A stretch of 20,394 bases of DNA from an uncultured Erysipelotrichaceae bacterium (lineage in GTDB: Bacteria > Bacillota_I > Bacilli_A > Erysipelotrichales > Erysipelotrichaceae), in NCBI GenBank assembly GCA_902766675.1, contig CACXEN010000139.1, positions 1 to 20,394 of the forward strand, in the 5' to 3' direction. Both the position numbers and the translations under genes were made by a program. The notes under the pieces were generated by a model. The model worked only from the letters and a program-made list of their open reading frames with translations, made no database searches and was not told where the DNA came from. Positions 3,142 through 20,214 of the stretch are shown piece after piece. Each line of letters starts with the position of its first letter. The first letter of the stretch is position 1.

Positions 3142-3177
3142 TTTATATGCCTAGTGGCAAAGGAGAAAAGAAATAAT

Positions 3178-3951
3178 ATGAAAAGATTTTTAAAGGGTGT
3201 TGCAGCATTAGCTCTAACATTTAGCTTAGTAGCTTGCGCAAACAATTCAGGTAACACAGAAGAACCAGCAGCAGATGAAACAAAAGAAGAGGAAGAAGAC
3301 ACAACTCCTACTAAGGGTCTTTACCAAATCTATAACACAACTGGTGAAGCTCTAACAGAACTATACATCTACAAGAATGGTGAATCTGATAAAGGTACAA
3401 ACTATGCTGAAAGTGAAGATTGGACACACAATACTCCAGCTATGTTAGAAATCGATTTAGGTGAATTACCAGCAAATGAATGCCATGGTATTTACACATT
3501 AGAATTCACAACAGAAGGTGGATGGACAGGTAAGTTCGAAACACTATCACATGAAGAAGCTCCAGTTGCATTATTAAGTGAAGATGCAGCTAGTGGCGCT
3601 ACAAATGGTCAACAAATTTCATTCTTCGAACCAATGGTTGAAGGTGACTATGACATTTATAACGTTACAGGTGAAAAAGTTACAGAACTATACATCTATG
3701 TAAACGGTGAAACTGACAAAGGTGAAAACTATGCAGCTGAAGGTTTAGATGATGGTGCAACAGTTCATGTACACAAAGATGAAGTACCAGCTTCTACAAT
3801 CAGCCACTTATATACAATCGAATATGTAACAGAAAGTGGAAGAACAGGTGCATTCGAAAACTTATCTCAAGAAACAGCACCTATCTCTTTACTAGCTGAA
3901 GATGATATGACTGGACCATCTCCAATTAGCTTCTTCGCACCTGAAAAATAA
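3178..3951 (+). CDS. Secreted lipoprotein built of two tandem repeats
   Basis: From the ATG at 3178 the product is 257 residues with a lipoprotein signal peptide: basic MKRFLK, a hydrophobic core and the lipobox LVAC with Cys20 as lipidation site. A GTG at 3154 would extend the frame by 8 residues, but it lies before the AAAGGAG site (3159-3165), so I reject it. After an acidic linker rich in Glu and Thr, two homologous units of about 100 residues follow. Each contains IYNxTGE, TELYIYxNGExDKGxNYA, a LYT[IL]E[FY]xTE segment, GxFExLS and SFF. I do not recognise the repeat. Many C-ending codons (AAC, TTC, ATC) set it apart from its neighbours, a sign of high expression. It has its own promoter and terminator. 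Confidence 0.85.
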   Translation: MKRFLKGVAALALTFSLVACANNSGNTEEPAADETKEEEEDTTPTKGLYQIYNTTGEALTELYIYKNGESDKGTNYAESEDWTHNTPAMLEIDLGELPANECHGIYTLEFTTEGGWTGKFETLSHEEAPVALLSEDAASGATNGQQISFFEPMVEGDYDIYNVTGEKVTELYIYVNGETDKGENYAAEGLDDGATVHVHKDEVPASTISHLYTIEYVTESGRTGAFENLSQETAPISLLAEDDMTGPSPISFFAPEK

Positions 3952-3973
3952 TTGGGTAAAAAGTCAAAACTAG

Positions 3974-4000
3974 GAAGGCAAGAAATTGCCTTCTTTTTTT
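3974..4000 (+). terminator. Terminator of the lipoprotein gene
   Basis: GAAGGCAA (3974-3981) pairs perfectly with TTGCCTTC (3986-3993) across a GAAA loop, followed by seven T residues. It is a strong intrinsic terminator and cuts the downstream RNA off from the lipoprotein transcript. Confidence 0.92.
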
Positions 4001-4021
4001 GTCTTAAACTTTTTCACATAA

Positions 4022-4051
4022 TTTAACATTTTTTAACGATATTTCTAATAT
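4022..4051 (+). promoter_or_regulatory. Candidate promoter of the C-rich small RNA
   Basis: TTAACA at 4023-4028 and TAATAT at 4046-4051 are 17 bases apart and would start a transcript near 4058. The -10 box is imperfect, and a second AT-rich box (TATTAT, 4064-4069) is possible. The region is very AT-rich, so the match could be chance. It does lie between a strong terminator and the structured RNA. Confidence 0.4.
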
Positions 4052-4057
4052 AGTAAT

Positions 4058-4179
4058 TTTTTATATTATAGGTGCAGATGAAAATCTGCTCTGGATGAAA
4101 ATGTACCCCTTTGCATTTCACTCAGAGATTCTATCCCCTTATTATGAATAGTCTGAAGAGAGCCCGATGGGCTCTTTTC
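4058..4179 (+). ncRNA. Structured small RNA or leader with two C-rich loops, RsaE/RoxS-like
   Basis: About 120 bases between the lipoprotein terminator and the trkA promoter fold into a series of hairpins. GCAGAT/ATCTGC (4074-4079 and 4084-4089) closes a GAAA loop. TCTG/CAGA plus TGAAAATG/CATTTCA (4090-4126) holds the loop TACCCCTTTG. ATTC/GAAT (4128-4149) holds a loop containing TCCCCTTATT. The last hairpin is a terminator. Two single-stranded CCCCUU motifs followed by a terminator resemble the anti-Shine-Dalgarno small RNA RsaE/RoxS of Staphylococcus and Bacillus, as I remember its sequence; homology is not proven. It could instead be a riboswitch leader of trkA, but a good promoter between its terminator and trkA argues for an independent RNA. 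Confidence 0.5.
4157..4179 (+). terminator. Terminator of the small RNA upstream of trkA
   Basis: AGAGCCC (4159-4165) pairs perfectly with GGGCTCT (4169-4175) across a GAT loop and runs into TTTT with further T-rich sequence. It is the only strongly GC-rich hairpin in this gap. Confidence 0.8.
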
Positions 4180-4190
4180 TATTTGACTAT

Positions 4191-4218
4191 TTGTCTTTTT
4201 ATTCCGGAGTGATACAAT
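4191..4218 (+). promoter_or_regulatory. Promoter of trkA-trkH
   Basis: TTGTCT at 4191-4196 and TACAAT at 4213-4218 are 16 bases apart, just downstream of the small-RNA terminator. The predicted start is near 4225. This gives a short leader with the AAGGGG ribosome site at 4236-4241, 6 bases before the ATG at 4248. Confidence 0.6.
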
Positions 4219-4247: not shown

Positions 4248-5609
4248 ATGAATATTTTAATTGCAGGAGCAGGAAAAGTTGGGAAAACAATCGCGAATGA
4301 ATTGAGTGATGAAGGTCATGATATAACAATCATTGATAGCAATTCGAAAGTATTAGAAGAAGCAATCTCAAAATATGATGTCATTGGCGTAGTTGGTAAT
4401 AGTGCATCAAAAGATGTATTAGAAGAAGCAAACGTACAAAACATGGATATTTTTATTGCGGCGACTAGTGCTGATGAGGTGAATTTATTAAGTACAATTA
4501 CTGCGCATTCTTTGAATGAAAATATACATACAATCGCAAGAATTCGTAATCCTGAATATGCAAAACAAGCATATGATATGCGAGATGTATTCTCTTTATC
4601 ATTAGTGGTTAATCCTGAAAAACAAACTGCAATGGAAATTGCAAGACTATTAAAATACCCTGGATTCTTAAAGAGAGAAACATTTGCGAAAGCAAGAGTT
4701 GAAATTGTTGAACTAAAAGTATTAGAAGATAGTATTTTGAATAATGTAAAACTAATGCATTTACAAAATACGGTAAATGCAAGAGTGCTAGTTTGTGCTG
4801 TTACAAGAAATGGTGAGTCTTATATCCCAGATGGAAATTTCGTTTTGGAAAAAGGAGATCGCATTTATGTAACAGGTGAAACACAACAATTACATACAAT
4901 GCTTACAAACATTGGTATTATCACAATGCCTGTAAAACATGCGATCATTACCGGTGGTGGGAAAATAACATATTATTTAGCAGAAGAATTACATCGTTCG
5001 AATATTGCGACTTCCATCATTGAATATGATGAAGAACTATGTGAAACACTTGCCAGCAAATTGCCATTTGCGACGGTGATTCGAGGTGATGTATCTGATC
5101 GCGCTGTATTAGATGGTGAAGAAATAGATGGATATGATGCATTTGTGTCACTAACTGGTATGGATGAATTAAACATCGTTACATCGTTATATGCACATAC
5201 AAATGGAGTGCCACAAGTCGTTACGAAATTAGGTCGTGGAGAGGCTCCAGATTTAATTGGGAATATGCCAATTGGCTCTGTTGTTTGTCCAAAAGAATTA
5301 TGTACGATGCATATTGTTCGTTATGTGCGTGCTATTCAAAATTCAAAAGGTGCAGCATTAACAATCCATAGAATTGCTGAAGGTAATGTAGAAGCCATTG
5401 AATTTGAAGTGGATAAAGATACAAAACATATTAATGAACCACTAAAGAATACAAAGACAAAAGACAATGTTTTAATCGTATCAATCCGCCATGGAACAAA
5501 AGTATCTATTGGTGGTGGTGATGCAACATATGATGTTGGTGATTCAGTTATTGTGGTTGCGCAAAAGAATGCCGCAATTCATACGTTAAATGATATTTTT
5601 GAGGAGTAG
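4248..5609 (+). CDS. trkA: Trk potassium uptake system peripheral subunit TrkA
   Basis: With the ATG at 4248 the product is 453 residues, the usual TrkA size. An in-frame ATG at 4167 lies inside the upstream terminator hairpin and before the promoter, so it is rejected. The protein is two tandem RCK units. The first begins MNILIAGAGKVGKTIA, a Rossmann GxGxxG fold with an acidic residue after the second strand (IIDS). The second starts near residue 230 with a degenerate GGGKITYYLAEEL. Each is followed by an RCK-C domain. By family knowledge TrkA is a cytoplasmic nucleotide-binding ring that gates TrkH. The stop is 3 bases before trkH, so they form an operon. No ydaO-type c-di-AMP riboswitch motif is seen upstream. 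Confidence 0.93.
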   Translation: MNILIAGAGKVGKTIANELSDEGHDITIIDSNSKVLEEAISKYDVIGVVGNSASKDVLEEANVQNMDIFIAATSADEVNLLSTITAHSLNENIHTIARIRNPEYAKQAYDMRDVFSLSLVVNPEKQTAMEIARLLKYPGFLKRETFAKARVEIVELKVLEDSILNNVKLMHLQNTVNARVLVCAVTRNGESYIPDGNFVLEKGDRIYVTGETQQLHTMLTNIGIITMPVKHAIITGGGKITYYLAEELHRSNIATSIIEYDEELCETLASKLPFATVIRGDVSDRAVLDGEEIDGYDAFVSLTGMDELNIVTSLYAHTNGVPQVVTKLGRGEAPDLIGNMPIGSVVCPKELCTMHIVRYVRAIQNSKGAALTIHRIAEGNVEAIEFEVDKDTKHINEPLKNTKTKDNVLIVSIRHGTKVSIGGGDATYDVGDSVIVVAQKNAAIHTLNDIFEE

Positions 5610-12388: not shown

Positions 12389-12640
12389 TTGAGATTTGGC
12401 CAATGGTATTACCTAAAATCTAGCGGTGCTATGGCAAGCGATGAGTGGTGCAAAGTATCTGGTAAATGGTATGTATTCAAAACAAACGGTATCATGTTTA
12501 CTGATTGGCATTCATATAACGCTAAATACTATCACTTAAACCCAGTTGGCGGTGGTCCACTAGGTTCAATGGATACCAATAAATGGATTGGTAAATACCA
12601 TGTCAATGCACAAGGTGTATGGGATAGAACAGCAAAATAA
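12389..12640 (+). pseudogene. 5'-truncated remnant of a cell-wall-binding repeat protein
   Basis: About 80 codons encode only the tail of a choline-binding-type repeat protein: GQWYYLKSSGAMASDEW, then SGKWYVFKTNGIM and the family ending TNKWIGKYHVNAQGVWD. The same ending closes the protease (14710-16959) and the minus-strand protein (19540-20214) in this window. The frame is closed by a TGA immediately upstream. The only possible start is a TTG without a ribosome site, and there is no signal peptide. I therefore read it as the surviving 3' end of a lost gene, cut by deletion or rearrangement. The repeat units still have intact aromatic residues, so the loss may be recent or the piece may serve as a donor for recombination. 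Confidence 0.75.
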
Positions 12641-14709: not shown

Positions 14710-16959
14710 GTGAGGAAAAATACAATATTATTAACAGCTTTATTATGCATCATTCATTGTTTACCTTTTTCTGTGCTTGCGGATGAGAAAACGGAAGTAG
14801 AAGTAGTTGAGACAGTTGAAGAATTGGCTAAAACTTCTAGCGCATCAGACGTGCAACCGTTTTTTCAAATTGATTTGGTTGATGGAGAAGTAAATGGGGA
14901 TGCAGAGTTTTCAGATCTTGTTGGAGAGGACTATTTTGATGTAGTTGATGAAACAGACTCAATAGAAGTAAGAGAAGAAATAGTTAATGAATGTTTAAGT
15001 GAAACTGGTCTATACCAAACGGGTGAAGTTACAGACAATAGTTTGGATGTAGTTTCTACATATGCATATAAAAGAATACGTTTAGAAGCACCACAAAGTG
15101 ATATGATTCAAACATTCGGTGCTACGCAAGCTGTATACTTTAATGATTATTATCTTTTATCTTATGCAAGCGAAGAGGAAACACGTAGTGCATATGAAAA
15201 GTTAATGGAAGAGTATGGTGAATACAATGTGTATTTAGATTTGCCAATTCGTGGTGAAGCATTTGGTTGGGGCTATGATGTAATGAACTTTGATGCTGGA
15301 ATAGAAAAAGCTAGTGCAAGTGGAGAAGTTGTCAAAATTGCAGTTATAGATTCAGGTATTAATAAAAATCACATTATTTTTAACCAAACAGTTATTATTG
15401 ATGAATTTAATGCAAAAAACGGAGAATATGATGCGACGGATGACCTTGGTCATGGCACAGCAGTAGCTGGTATTATAGCGGAATCAACACCAACCAATGT
15501 TGAGGTTATTCCTATTAAAGTGCTTGGTAGTGATAACCATTGCTCGTGGGAAGAATTATGGATGGGATTACAATATGCTGAGAGTGTTGGCGCTGATATA
15601 GTAAATATGTCAATTAGCGGAAACATATTGGAAGATTTTAATGGAATTAGAGAAGAAGCTAAGAAATATTATGATAACTATAACAAGAAGACGAATCAAT
15701 TCTATTCTGGTCTTATGGTTGCGGCAAGCGGAAATGACAGTAAAGATATCATGGAGAATTATATTGTGCCAGCAGCAGTAGATAATGTGATAACAGTAGG
15801 AGCACTAAATCGCCAGAATGATTTAAGTTATTTCTCGAATTATGGAGAAGGAATAGACTTTGTGGCACCAGGCGAAAGTTTGAGTTTGGCAGATTATTCT
15901 AGAAATGATGGTCTTTGTTGGATGCAAGGAACATCATTTGCGTCACCATATATTGCGGCTGTAGCAGCAAATATTCTTGCGACAAATCCATACTATACAC
16001 ATGAAGATGTATACAATACGATGGTAGAGTTAAGCAAAGATTTAGGTGATGCTGGATTTGATTATATGTATGGTTATGGTATGCCTGTCTTTACGGAAAA
16101 TGGCGAAGATACAGATGGTATTAAGCATTCTATTGCGAATGCATCTATTTCTAATATTAGTGATCAAACTTATAGCCCATTTGGAATTCGACCATACTTT
16201 ACTATTTCAATGAACAATAAACGTTTGAATGAAAATACAGATTATCTGGTTACATATAAGAATAATATTAATGCCGGTGTAGCGACAATCACTATTACTG
16301 GTATTGGTAAATACAATGGTCAAATAACAAAAACATATAAGATAAATCCTTCTAGTTTCCCAAATTATCTTGATGTGATATTAGATAAAGAAACATATAC
16401 ATATAATGGCGCACCGGTTAAACCTAAAGTAATTTCGGTTAAACAAGCAGGTTATGGTATTCTCCCACCATTCGAAGAGAATAAAGATTTTGTTATAAAG
16501 TATGAAAACAATACGAAAGCGGGAGTTGGAAGAATAGTATTTACTGGAAAAGGAAACTGGAAAGGAACATTTACTAAAGAGTTCACTATTACAAAAGGTA
16601 ATCCAAAATGGATGAAAGACTCAAAAGGTTGGTGGTACTCTTACGGAGATGGAAATTACCCTAAGAATAAATGGGGAAAGATTAGTGGAAGCTGGTACCA
16701 TTTTGATAAAAATGGTTATATGCAAACAGGTTGGCTAAAAGATTCTGGTAAATGGTATTACTTGAAATCAAGCGGAGTTATGGCAACTGGCTGGGTAAAA
16801 GTAGGAAGTAAATACTACTACATGGATAAATCAGGAGTCATGCAAGCCAATAAATGGATTGGTAACTATTATGTTCAATCTGATGGATCAATGGCAGTAA
16901 ATAAGTGGATTGGTAAATACCATGTAGATGCTAGTGGTAAATGGGATAAAACGAAATAA
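14710..16959 (+). CDS. Secreted subtilisin-like serine protease with cell-wall-binding repeats
   Basis: The 749-residue protein starts at a GTG behind GAAGGGGG and has a signal peptide (MRKNTILLTALLCIIHC..., cleavage near ADEK). Residues 26-190 look like an acidic propeptide region. The S8 catalytic domain shows Asp214 (AVIDSGIN), His248 (GHGTAVAGI), oxyanion Asn342 (AASGND) and Ser409 (GTSFASPYIAA). Two Ig-like units follow, about 475-545 and 550-628, sharing KNNINAGVATITITG and ENNTKAGVGRIVFTG. Residues 633-747 are choline-binding-type repeats (GWWYSYG, GSWYHFD, GKWYYLK, NKWIGKYH). It is thus exported and held on the wall or teichoic acid. It lies 60 bases after the HD-GYP-like gene; a weak TATGAT (14679-14684) may be its own -10. 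Confidence 0.92.
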   Translation: MRKNTILLTALLCIIHCLPFSVLADEKTEVEVVETVEELAKTSSASDVQPFFQIDLVDGEVNGDAEFSDLVGEDYFDVVDETDSIEVREEIVNECLSETGLYQTGEVTDNSLDVVSTYAYKRIRLEAPQSDMIQTFGATQAVYFNDYYLLSYASEEETRSAYEKLMEEYGEYNVYLDLPIRGEAFGWGYDVMNFDAGIEKASASGEVVKIAVIDSGINKNHIIFNQTVIIDEFNAKNGEYDATDDLGHGTAVAGIIAESTPTNVEVIPIKVLGSDNHCSWEELWMGLQYAESVGADIVNMSISGNILEDFNGIREEAKKYYDNYNKKTNQFYSGLMVAASGNDSKDIMENYIVPAAVDNVITVGALNRQNDLSYFSNYGEGIDFVAPGESLSLADYSRNDGLCWMQGTSFASPYIAAVAANILATNPYYTHEDVYNTMVELSKDLGDAGFDYMYGYGMPVFTENGEDTDGIKHSIANASISNISDQTYSPFGIRPYFTISMNNKRLNENTDYLVTYKNNINAGVATITITGIGKYNGQITKTYKINPSSFPNYLDVILDKETYTYNGAPVKPKVISVKQAGYGILPPFEENKDFVIKYENNTKAGVGRIVFTGKGNWKGTFTKEFTITKGNPKWMKDSKGWWYSYGDGNYPKNKWGKISGSWYHFDKNGYMQTGWLKDSGKWYYLKSSGVMATGWVKVGSKYYYMDKSGVMQANKWIGNYYVQSDGSMAVNKWIGKYHVDASGKWDKTK

Positions 16960-19528: not shown

Positions 19529-19541
19529 TAGAGCTTTTCTT
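19515..19541. terminator. Bidirectional terminator between the HAD gene and the minus-strand wall-binding gene
   Basis: AAAAGCTCT (19517-19525) pairs with AGAGCTTTT (19530-19538) across TAAT. The stem is flanked by A residues on the left and T residues on the right, so it works in both directions. It overlaps the end of the HAD gene and starts right after the stop of the converging gene. Confidence 0.85.
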
Positions 19542-20214
19542 AATAACTTCTGTCCCAAACGCCGTTAGCATTTACATGGTGTCTGCCAATCCATTTATTT
19601 GTTTGGAGAGCACCATTTCTATCGAAGTAGTAGTATTTATTTCCGATCTTTTCCCAGCCTGTTTCCATTTCGCCGTCTTCATCGAAATAATACCATTTAC
19701 CAGAAATCTTTTGCCAACCTGTTTGCATGTACCCATACTTATCGAAATGGTACCAGTCATCACCGATTCTCTTCCATTGATTTTTTGGATAGCTACCATT
19801 TGCGTTGCGGTACCACCATCCCTTAGAATCTCTAATCCAGCCTTTTTTGAGTTGGTAAGCTGTTACACGATTTCTTGTCTTGAAAGAGCCAGTTACATCC
19901 GCATTAGCGTTTGTATTGCGAATTTTAACGCCACTAATGGAGAATGTATACTTTGTGTTAGCCTTTAATCCGTTTACATAGAATTTTAGATCATCAGAAT
20001 CAAATTCAATTAATGAAGCTGAATAAGTATTTCCTGAAGAATCTTTTACAATAACTTTTGGATTTTGATATTTAACATTTTTGGTGAGTTCTACTTCAAC
20101 AACACTGTTTGATTCAACTTCAACATCTTCTACGATGGAATAAGCCATTACAGGTGTAAATGTTGAGCAGATACCTAAGATTATAGCTAGGCTTGTAATA
20201 ATACGTTTTATCAT
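19540..20214 (-). CDS. Secreted cell-wall-binding repeat protein
   Basis: The 224-residue protein has a signal peptide with cleavage after PVMA (Ala24). A beta-rich domain of about 90 residues follows (26-115), with SASLIEFDSDDLKFYVNGLK and KYTFSISG, like fibronectin or Ig folds. Residues 125-221 hold choline-binding-type repeats (GWWYRNANG, DDWYHFDKYGYMQTGW, GKWYYFDEDGEMETGW, NKYYYFDRNG, TNKWIGRHHV). No enzyme domain is present, so it is probably a surface adhesin or structural protein held by teichoic-acid choline or similar ligands. The start is supported by CGAGGAAC about 7 bases upstream. A weak minus-strand promoter (TTTACA/TAAATA, about 20301-20274) overlaps the promoter region of the next plus-strand gene. 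Confidence 0.88.
   Translation of the reverse strand: MIKRIITSLAIILGICSTFTPVMAYSIVEDVEVESNSVVEVELTKNVKYQNPKVIVKDSSGNTYSASLIEFDSDDLKFYVNGLKANTKYTFSISGVKIRNTNANADVTGSFKTRNRVTAYQLKKGWIRDSKGWWYRNANGSYPKNQWKRIGDDWYHFDKYGYMQTGWQKISGKWYYFDEDGEMETGWEKIGNKYYYFDRNGALQTNKWIGRHHVNANGVWDRSY

Follow-up and report, generated by a model that had tools for sequence, protein, structure and literature searches.

The stretch of DNA analysed here (the window) is 20,394 nucleotides long and comes from an uncultured Erysipelotrichaceae bacterium; to judge from its sequence, the region upstream of its trkA gene very probably holds a real small RNA (sRNA) gene. We consider it likely that this gene specifies a free-standing, trans-acting regulatory RNA, about 110 nt long and one of a family that is spread through the Erysipelotrichaceae, is not found in Rfam 15 at threshold, and would act by an anti-Shine-Dalgarno (anti-SD) mechanism. 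What can be read in the DNA is a conserved tandem-repeat promoter, two covarying hairpins, an invariant linker UUCUAUCCCCU, a C-rich loop and a terminator. The family is new, its design is of a known kind, and the name RsaE is not earned. The elements read in the window are as follows.

4072-4180, plus strand: small RNA gene, about 110 nt (108), exact ends inferred; covariance model R2 (see below) scores 63.9 bits at 4072-4151; fold z -5.2
4013-4053, plus strand: tandem direct-repeat promoter box TTCACATAATTTAACATTTTTTAACGATATT..., half-sites about 10-11 bp apart; putative site of an OmpR-type response regulator
4062-4067, plus strand: -10 element TATATT, with no good -35 element, whose place is overlapped by the repeats; columns 49-54 of the aligned promoters read TATAnT
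4074-4089, plus strand: 5' hairpin GCAGAU-GAAA-AUCUGC, which folds; covariation helix 1, with 96.8% of cells paired and two-sided changes at 4 of 5 pairs
4090-4126, plus strand: second hairpin, with the C-rich loop UACCCCUUU at 4104-4112, which folds; covariation helices 2 and 3
4128-4142, plus strand: linker AUUCUAUCCCCUUAU, the best conserved element; presumed anti-SD seed
4155-4185, plus strand: intrinsic terminator GAAGAGAGCCC-GAU-GGGCUCUUUUC with a U-rich tail; hairpin at 4155-4179, 11 bp in both folds

Structure of the window RNA

The segment 4050-4180 folds at -39.8 kcal/mol, compared to -25.1 +/- 3.6 kcal/mol for dinucleotide shuffles (z -4.1), and the likely transcript, 4072-4182, at -36.7 compared to -21.4 +/- 2.9 kcal/mol for shuffles (z -5.2); none of 200 shuffles equalled the native value in either case. 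The original prediction, made from the letters of the DNA, had started the gene at 4058, which was not borne out, the start lying near 4072. The two C-rich stretches that it had pointed out were found where it had placed them, UACCCCUUUG at 4104-4113 and UCCCCUUAUU at 4134-4143. Its plan of three hairpins plus a terminator is reproduced by the minimum-energy fold of 4072-4182; the third hairpin, a stem of four pairs (AUUC/GAAU) whose loop carries the second C-run, does not appear in the centroid of 4072-4182 or in the fold of 4050-4180, and its GAAU arm, judged by eye, survives in just 3 or 4 of 20 alignment rows from the genus. The structure that the aligned family sequences support consists of two hairpins, an open linker and a terminator. 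The centroid fold leaves linker AUUCUAUCCCCUUAU open; the minimum-energy fold places it in the loop of a weak hairpin of 4 bp. The terminator hairpin at 4155-4179 was absent from the output of a terminator scan of the window, apparently because most of its U-run lies within the stem. A coding role is unlikely, since a closed ATG frame of at least 15 codons is held by only 19 of 102 copies of the family.

The RNA belongs to a family within the Erysipelotrichaceae

A first DNA search of 60 related genomes, at E up to 1, returned matches in 58 of them, mostly chance-like; its 20 best places (E down to 0.003), all in the genus of the window, were taken as loci. On reading, every one of these 20 showed a TCACATAATT-like box and a -10 element, two hairpins, the first GCAGAT-like and the second with a C-rich loop, and then TTCTATCCCCT and a U-run hairpin. 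The linker core TTCTATCCCCT is invariant in all 20, and in the 20-row alignment A1 mean identity reaches 1.0 in the linker core and 0.85 in the stem columns, a comparison limited by the excision of the rows with the linker core as anchor. The loop of the second hairpin drifts in relatives, most rows carrying CUCCCCCUUAGC or similar, the usual loop of the genus, and not the UACCCCUUUG of the window. The stem positions of this alignment vary with compensation.

A covariance-model search of relatives, proposed together with the original prediction, bore the family out. Model R1, built from the 20 genus rows (its E-values and those of R2 are rough), found matches in 59 of the 70 genomes of the genus at E <= 0.5; in 58 of these the match reached E <= 3e-4. 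In the family it matched 140 of 244 genomes, in 44 of 59 genera, at E <= 0.1, where about 24 would be expected by chance. Forty further stretches were added at listed matches, and R1 over 84 loci gave 102 matches (alignment A2), from which the widened model R2 was built. At E <= 0.01 R2 matched 175 of 294 order genomes, in 45 of 78 genera (about 3 expected by chance), and all the matching genomes listed in this draw belong to the window's own family. In the wider draws 19 of 296 class genomes and 30 of 392 phylum genomes match.

Fifteen further matches were read by eye. Eleven look real; they come from other genera of the family, stand outside the models and have the box. Four do not: those in the out-of-family genomes G070, G122 and G683 were rejected for want of both box and terminator, and in the genome of the window itself a further match (G000:C216, 31.1 bits) was rejected since it has no box and its opposite strand falls within a long open frame. 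The RNA is restricted to one bacterial family as far as sampled. One further match, at locus L068 (14.8 bits), is false; it was kept in A2, R2, the A2 covariation, the promoter alignment and the CAU count, and dropped from the terminator, neighbour-frame and box-mismatch counts. The family appears to be widespread in gut and rumen Erysipelotrichaceae, the family name being judged from named relatives.

Two loci were noticed beside these. At L187 (G322:C1:176500-177600) two tandem divergent copies, found via the promoter box, stand by eye next to a thioredoxin-like gene, and since they are not among the RNA-model matches listed, the models may understate the size of the family. At L145 (G133:C19:13770) a box precedes, by eye, a short RNA-like stretch that has CCCC in its terminator loop and no TTCTATCCCC linker; it is possibly a divergent paralogue.

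A tandem-repeat promoter box precedes the copies

The box, with consensus TTCACATAATTTMACATAA, stands at a nearly fixed distance before the RNA. It was first noticed in the genus loci and then tested in the non-genus copies, where it occurs with at most 5 of 19 mismatches in 51 of 53 copies, compared to 7 of 106 control windows from the same loci; boxes of neighbouring copies may fall within some of these 7. In 40 of the 53 it starts 59-61 nt before the model start. Across 100 promoters (the false L068 match included) the repeats are spaced at about 10, 11 and 10 bp; TATAnT comes after them, and there is no -35 consensus. A whole-promoter matrix scored 47.6 at the window promoter, itself one of the training promoters, compared to -1.5 at the next best site in the window. 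Tandem repeats at such spacing before a -10 element are the layout expected of an OmpR-family activator. From this layout we predict that an OmpR-type response regulator probably switches the RNA on.

Control by PhoP in response to phosphate was considered and is not supported: pstS reached the cut-off in 12 of 70 genus genomes, and these 12 loci carry no sRNA-type promoter in the upstream DNA examined, the best scoring -8.0, compared to 25 to 61 (5th percentile to maximum) for true sRNA promoters, one of which scores -29. By eye, two of the pstS loci show other TTTACA repeats. Without mismatch, the box occurs 7 times in 12 genomes, in 5 cases at sRNA copies, and its reversed pattern not at all. 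With up to 3 mismatches it gave 129 sites in 8 genomes compared to 130 for the reversed pattern, so no further regulated gene can be named from it. In some species (for example L006, L007 and L012; by eye) the stretch between box and -10 element holds a palindrome, for instance TTGACCGATGGTCGG, that overlaps the place of a -35 element; it is possibly a second operator.

Covariation, terminators and changing neighbours indicate a free-standing RNA

In the 97 distinct rows of A2, an alignment fitted to the model, 92.7% of pair cells hold standard pairs compared to 63.8% in shuffles, and the covariation score is 0.679 compared to 0.195, every slid version staying below 0.1. The two helices of the second hairpin have 90.5% and 90.3% of cells paired, with two-sided changes at all 10 pairs. 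The unfitted 20-row alignment, whose structure was drawn from the same rows, is a weaker but less circular test; it gave 88.2% paired compared to 82.3% in shuffles, and none of 500 shuffles came as high. A terminator-like hairpin follows 81 of 96 copies compared to 51 of 480 shuffles. CCC precedes the linker in 91 of the 96 copies and occurs in the terminator loop in 22.

The nearest frames of 83 loci (at least 70 amino acids, up to two per side) fall into 148 clusters of similar proteins; the commonest neighbours in the genus, with one representative of each scanned, are integrase-like upstream (18 loci), small kinase-like (16) and HAD phosphatase (13). The integrase-like protein (Phage_int_SAM_5 in the one representative) is the nearest upstream frame in those 18 loci, for example, divergently, at L059. 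A downstream frame of at least 100 amino acids was found for 94 of 96 distinct copies and runs in the opposite direction in 30 of the 94; from this and the 148 clusters it follows that the RNA is not the leader of one gene. Two or three copies occur in 13 of 36 non-genus regions, some of which were deliberately cut wide to take in listed copies, and in 12 of the 13 they lie within about 1 kb of each other. On sequence evidence, the RNA has its own promoter and terminator independent of its neighbours, as a trans-acting sRNA should. The proposal of a free-standing RNA with two anti-SD-like C-rich stretches is well supported, at the level of sequence, by its own box, terminator, covarying stems, invariant linker and changing neighbours.

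In the window trkA follows the RNA directly, and some other copies have TrkA-like frames nearby (cluster 5, 9 frames), so a cis-acting leader or riboswitch of trkA has to be weighed. The flanks are as follows.

3972-3995, plus strand: terminator-like hairpin of the upstream gene, from a scan; it sets that gene (3154-3951) apart from the sRNA
4191-4218, plus strand: probable separate trkA promoter, TTGTCT-N16-TACAAT with TG (extended -10), from a scan
4248-5609, plus strand: trkA, a neighbour outside the RNA, with TrkA_N and TrkA_C domains

These are the terminator before and the promoter after the RNA that the original prediction had described. By eye, TACAATG or GATAAAATG precedes trkA in 9 of the 12 relatives printed; promoter-like sites in the window overall are no commoner than in shuffles (11 compared to 14.2 +/- 3.5). 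The terminator of the RNA and a probable separate promoter stand before trkA, and most of the 83 loci have other neighbours, besides the oppositely directed downstream frames; we hold a trkA leader to be very improbable.

The family resembles RsaE, csRNAs and LhrC in design

No Rfam 15 family reached threshold in the window. In a loose scan of 401 bases, a small search space that favours the E-value, RsaE (RF01820) had the best score and E-value of 4227 families (26.2 bits, E 0.024), far below its gathering score of 79 bits, so the Rfam check proposed earlier did not place the RNA in that family. In 60-kb scans the window RNA (L001) no longer matched RsaE at E <= 1, a level reached by 1 of 20 genus loci (L003, 29 bits) and 0 of 20 other loci. 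The earlier RsaE/RoxS-like label is thus apt for the overall plan and for the window's own loop, and not for membership.

Common descent with RsaE/RoxS, diverged beyond the Rfam threshold, would account for that best loose match and for the sharing, by eye, of ACCCCUUUG in the loop and AUCCCCUU in the linker between the window and the RsaE consensus. Length is also similar, C-rich regions lie in loop and linker, and a terminator follows. According to the available part of PMC4409812, the C-rich regions of RoxS/RsaE pair with ribosome-binding sites and its control by ResD/SrrA operates via a conserved site near -65; the box of the new family likewise stands some 60 nt upstream, mostly 59-61 nt before the model start. 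The same part describes a 10-nt duplication CCCCUUUGUU at C-rich regions 1 and 3, which the window lacks, having CCCCUUUGCA and CCCCUUAUUA instead. The window RNA also has an extra 5' hairpin, and the shared UACCCCUUUG loop is not the one usual in its relatives. Weak RsaE matches of up to 32.4 bits, chance-like, occur elsewhere in the class at loci without a match to the new model. Since the RsaE cut-off was reached in none of 198 class and 195 phylum genomes (a B. subtilis control reached it), there are no bridging RsaE members in this sample, and we regard such descent as improbable.

Streptococcal csRNAs (RF02379, gathering score 57 bits) are described in the available part of PMC3091779 as multicopy, controlled by CiaR, found at variable genomic places, and carrying an anti-SD/anti-AUG stretch unpaired between hairpins. 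As far as that description goes, the new family is similar in being often multicopy, at variable places, with a direct repeat before the promoter and an unpaired, putatively anti-SD and anti-AUG stretch. In contrast, the best csRNA score is 38.3 bits: L092 gave 38.3 and 34.4 bits and L086 35.4 bits, that is, 2 of 20 non-genus and 0 of 20 genus loci, with none on the window. The CiaR repeat given there, NTTAAG-N5-TTTAAG before the promoter with an invariable final G, differs from the nearest repeat of the window, TTTAAC-N4-TTTAAC, and from the family consensus TTCACATAAT/TTMACATAAT, and the 5' hairpin is again extra.

LhrC of Listeria monocytogenes, in the available part of PMC4132741, is multicopy, is controlled by LisRK and has three redundant CU-rich sites, in loop, linker and terminator loop; the paper states that no LisR consensus was known and maps only a responsive region. 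The window has two of the three sites, its terminator loop (GAU) being without a C-run; in the family, 22 of 96 copies have CCC there. Unlike LhrC, no second copy was accepted in the window's incomplete genome. No LhrC-named family was among the Rfam matches of the window, the 20 genus loci or the 20 other loci. The anti-SD design is established for RoxS/RsaE, csRNAs and LhrC (available parts of PMC4409812, PMC3091779 and PMC4132741), and by analogy it is plausible that the window RNA works most like this group. Among the papers listed by a literature search that took in few subscription papers, none described a base-pairing sRNA for Erysipelotrichaceae.

Among other Rfam matches, patAB-leader scored 39.3 bits (cut-off 92, E 0.0021) at L083, where the match covers the terminator on the opposite strand, and a sub-threshold CRISPR-DR52 match was seen at L018 2573-2609, minus strand (27.2 bits, cut-off 50).

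Proposed mode of action and candidate targets

We propose that a two-component response regulator of the OmpR type would turn the RNA on, and that its C-rich loop and linker would then pair with the G-rich Shine-Dalgarno regions of several messenger RNAs, whose translation would be blocked or which would be exposed to decay. The complement of the linker reads AAGGGG-AUAGAAU, which looks like an idealised ribosome-binding site with its spacer. In many non-genus copies a CAU before the linker could allow the start codon to be covered too: 35 of 54 non-genus rows, a count that includes one copy twice, have CAU no more than 12 bases ahead of the linker, compared to 23% expected from shuffles. An anti-start-codon role is not general, because only 6 of 48 genus-side rows have it. 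In a pattern search, AGGGGATAG ahead of ATG was found at 51 sites, spread over 13 of 14 genomes, compared to 7 sites for the reversed pattern. The candidates are single ones: the L18-like ribosomal protein gene in the window's genome, the one site of five there that resembles an initiation site, and a citrate-synthase-like gene in G324, named by eye. In the window trkA is partly complementary to the RNA (AAGGGGAAUAG).

Several results weigh against this reading. Many of the 51 AGGGGATAG sites are the other strand of the sRNA genes themselves, and four of the five in the window's genome lie inside long open frames. No recurrent target was found: a frame of at least 60 amino acids follows the site in 13 of 30 site loci, and none of these are interrelated. 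At trkA, AAGGGG is kept in 0 of the 12 relatives printed. As for the family itself, 12 of 70 genus genomes, some more than 90% complete, are without a convincing match, 15 of 96 copies received no terminator call, and in 6 of 96 most of the copy falls within a frame of at least 100 amino acids. In A2, 14 pairs show two-sided changes, which is no more than in shuffles (13.5).

The want of a recurrent messenger target, together with the unusual constancy of the linker core (20/20), would also fit a C-rich RNA whose main partner is a protein or, in a sponge role, another RNA, the invariant linker being the binding site. C-rich loops with single-stranded stretches are, however, the hallmark of proven anti-SD RNAs in low-GC Gram-positives (available parts of PMC4132741 and PMC4409812), and the CAU before the linker in non-genus rows fits anti-start-codon pairing, though few genus-side rows have it. 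We judge a sponge or protein-binding role to be unlikely, and anti-SD pairing remains the reading we prefer.

Other features of the window

The gene upstream of the RNA (3154-3951) is lipoprotein-like with an internal repeat, by eye, and has no Pfam match. The named relatives of TrkA (13 loci) are from uncultured Erysipelotrichaceae and Solobacterium sp., some labelled sheep rumen or jejunum. Three predicted proteins, at 12389-12640, 14710-16959 and 19540-20214, have common WYY/WIGKYHV-type repeats, which by eye resemble choline-binding or glucan-binding repeats.

Implications

It is a speculative idea, and we give it little credence, that RsaE, LhrC, the streptococcal csRNAs and the new family all branch from a single ancient lineage of anti-SD sRNAs driven by response regulators in low-GC Gram-positives. 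On this view the Erysipelotrichaceae copies would bridge the gap, some leaning towards RsaE and others towards csRNA, which two divergent members match below its cut-off. The covariance model, the specific promoter box and the invariant linker core make it possible to test the regulator and the targets directly. If our reading is true, the gut and rumen Erysipelotrichaceae would possess a widespread sRNA family, one that offers an independent comparison with RsaE, csRNA and LhrC on whether such RNAs arose repeatedly or share one origin.
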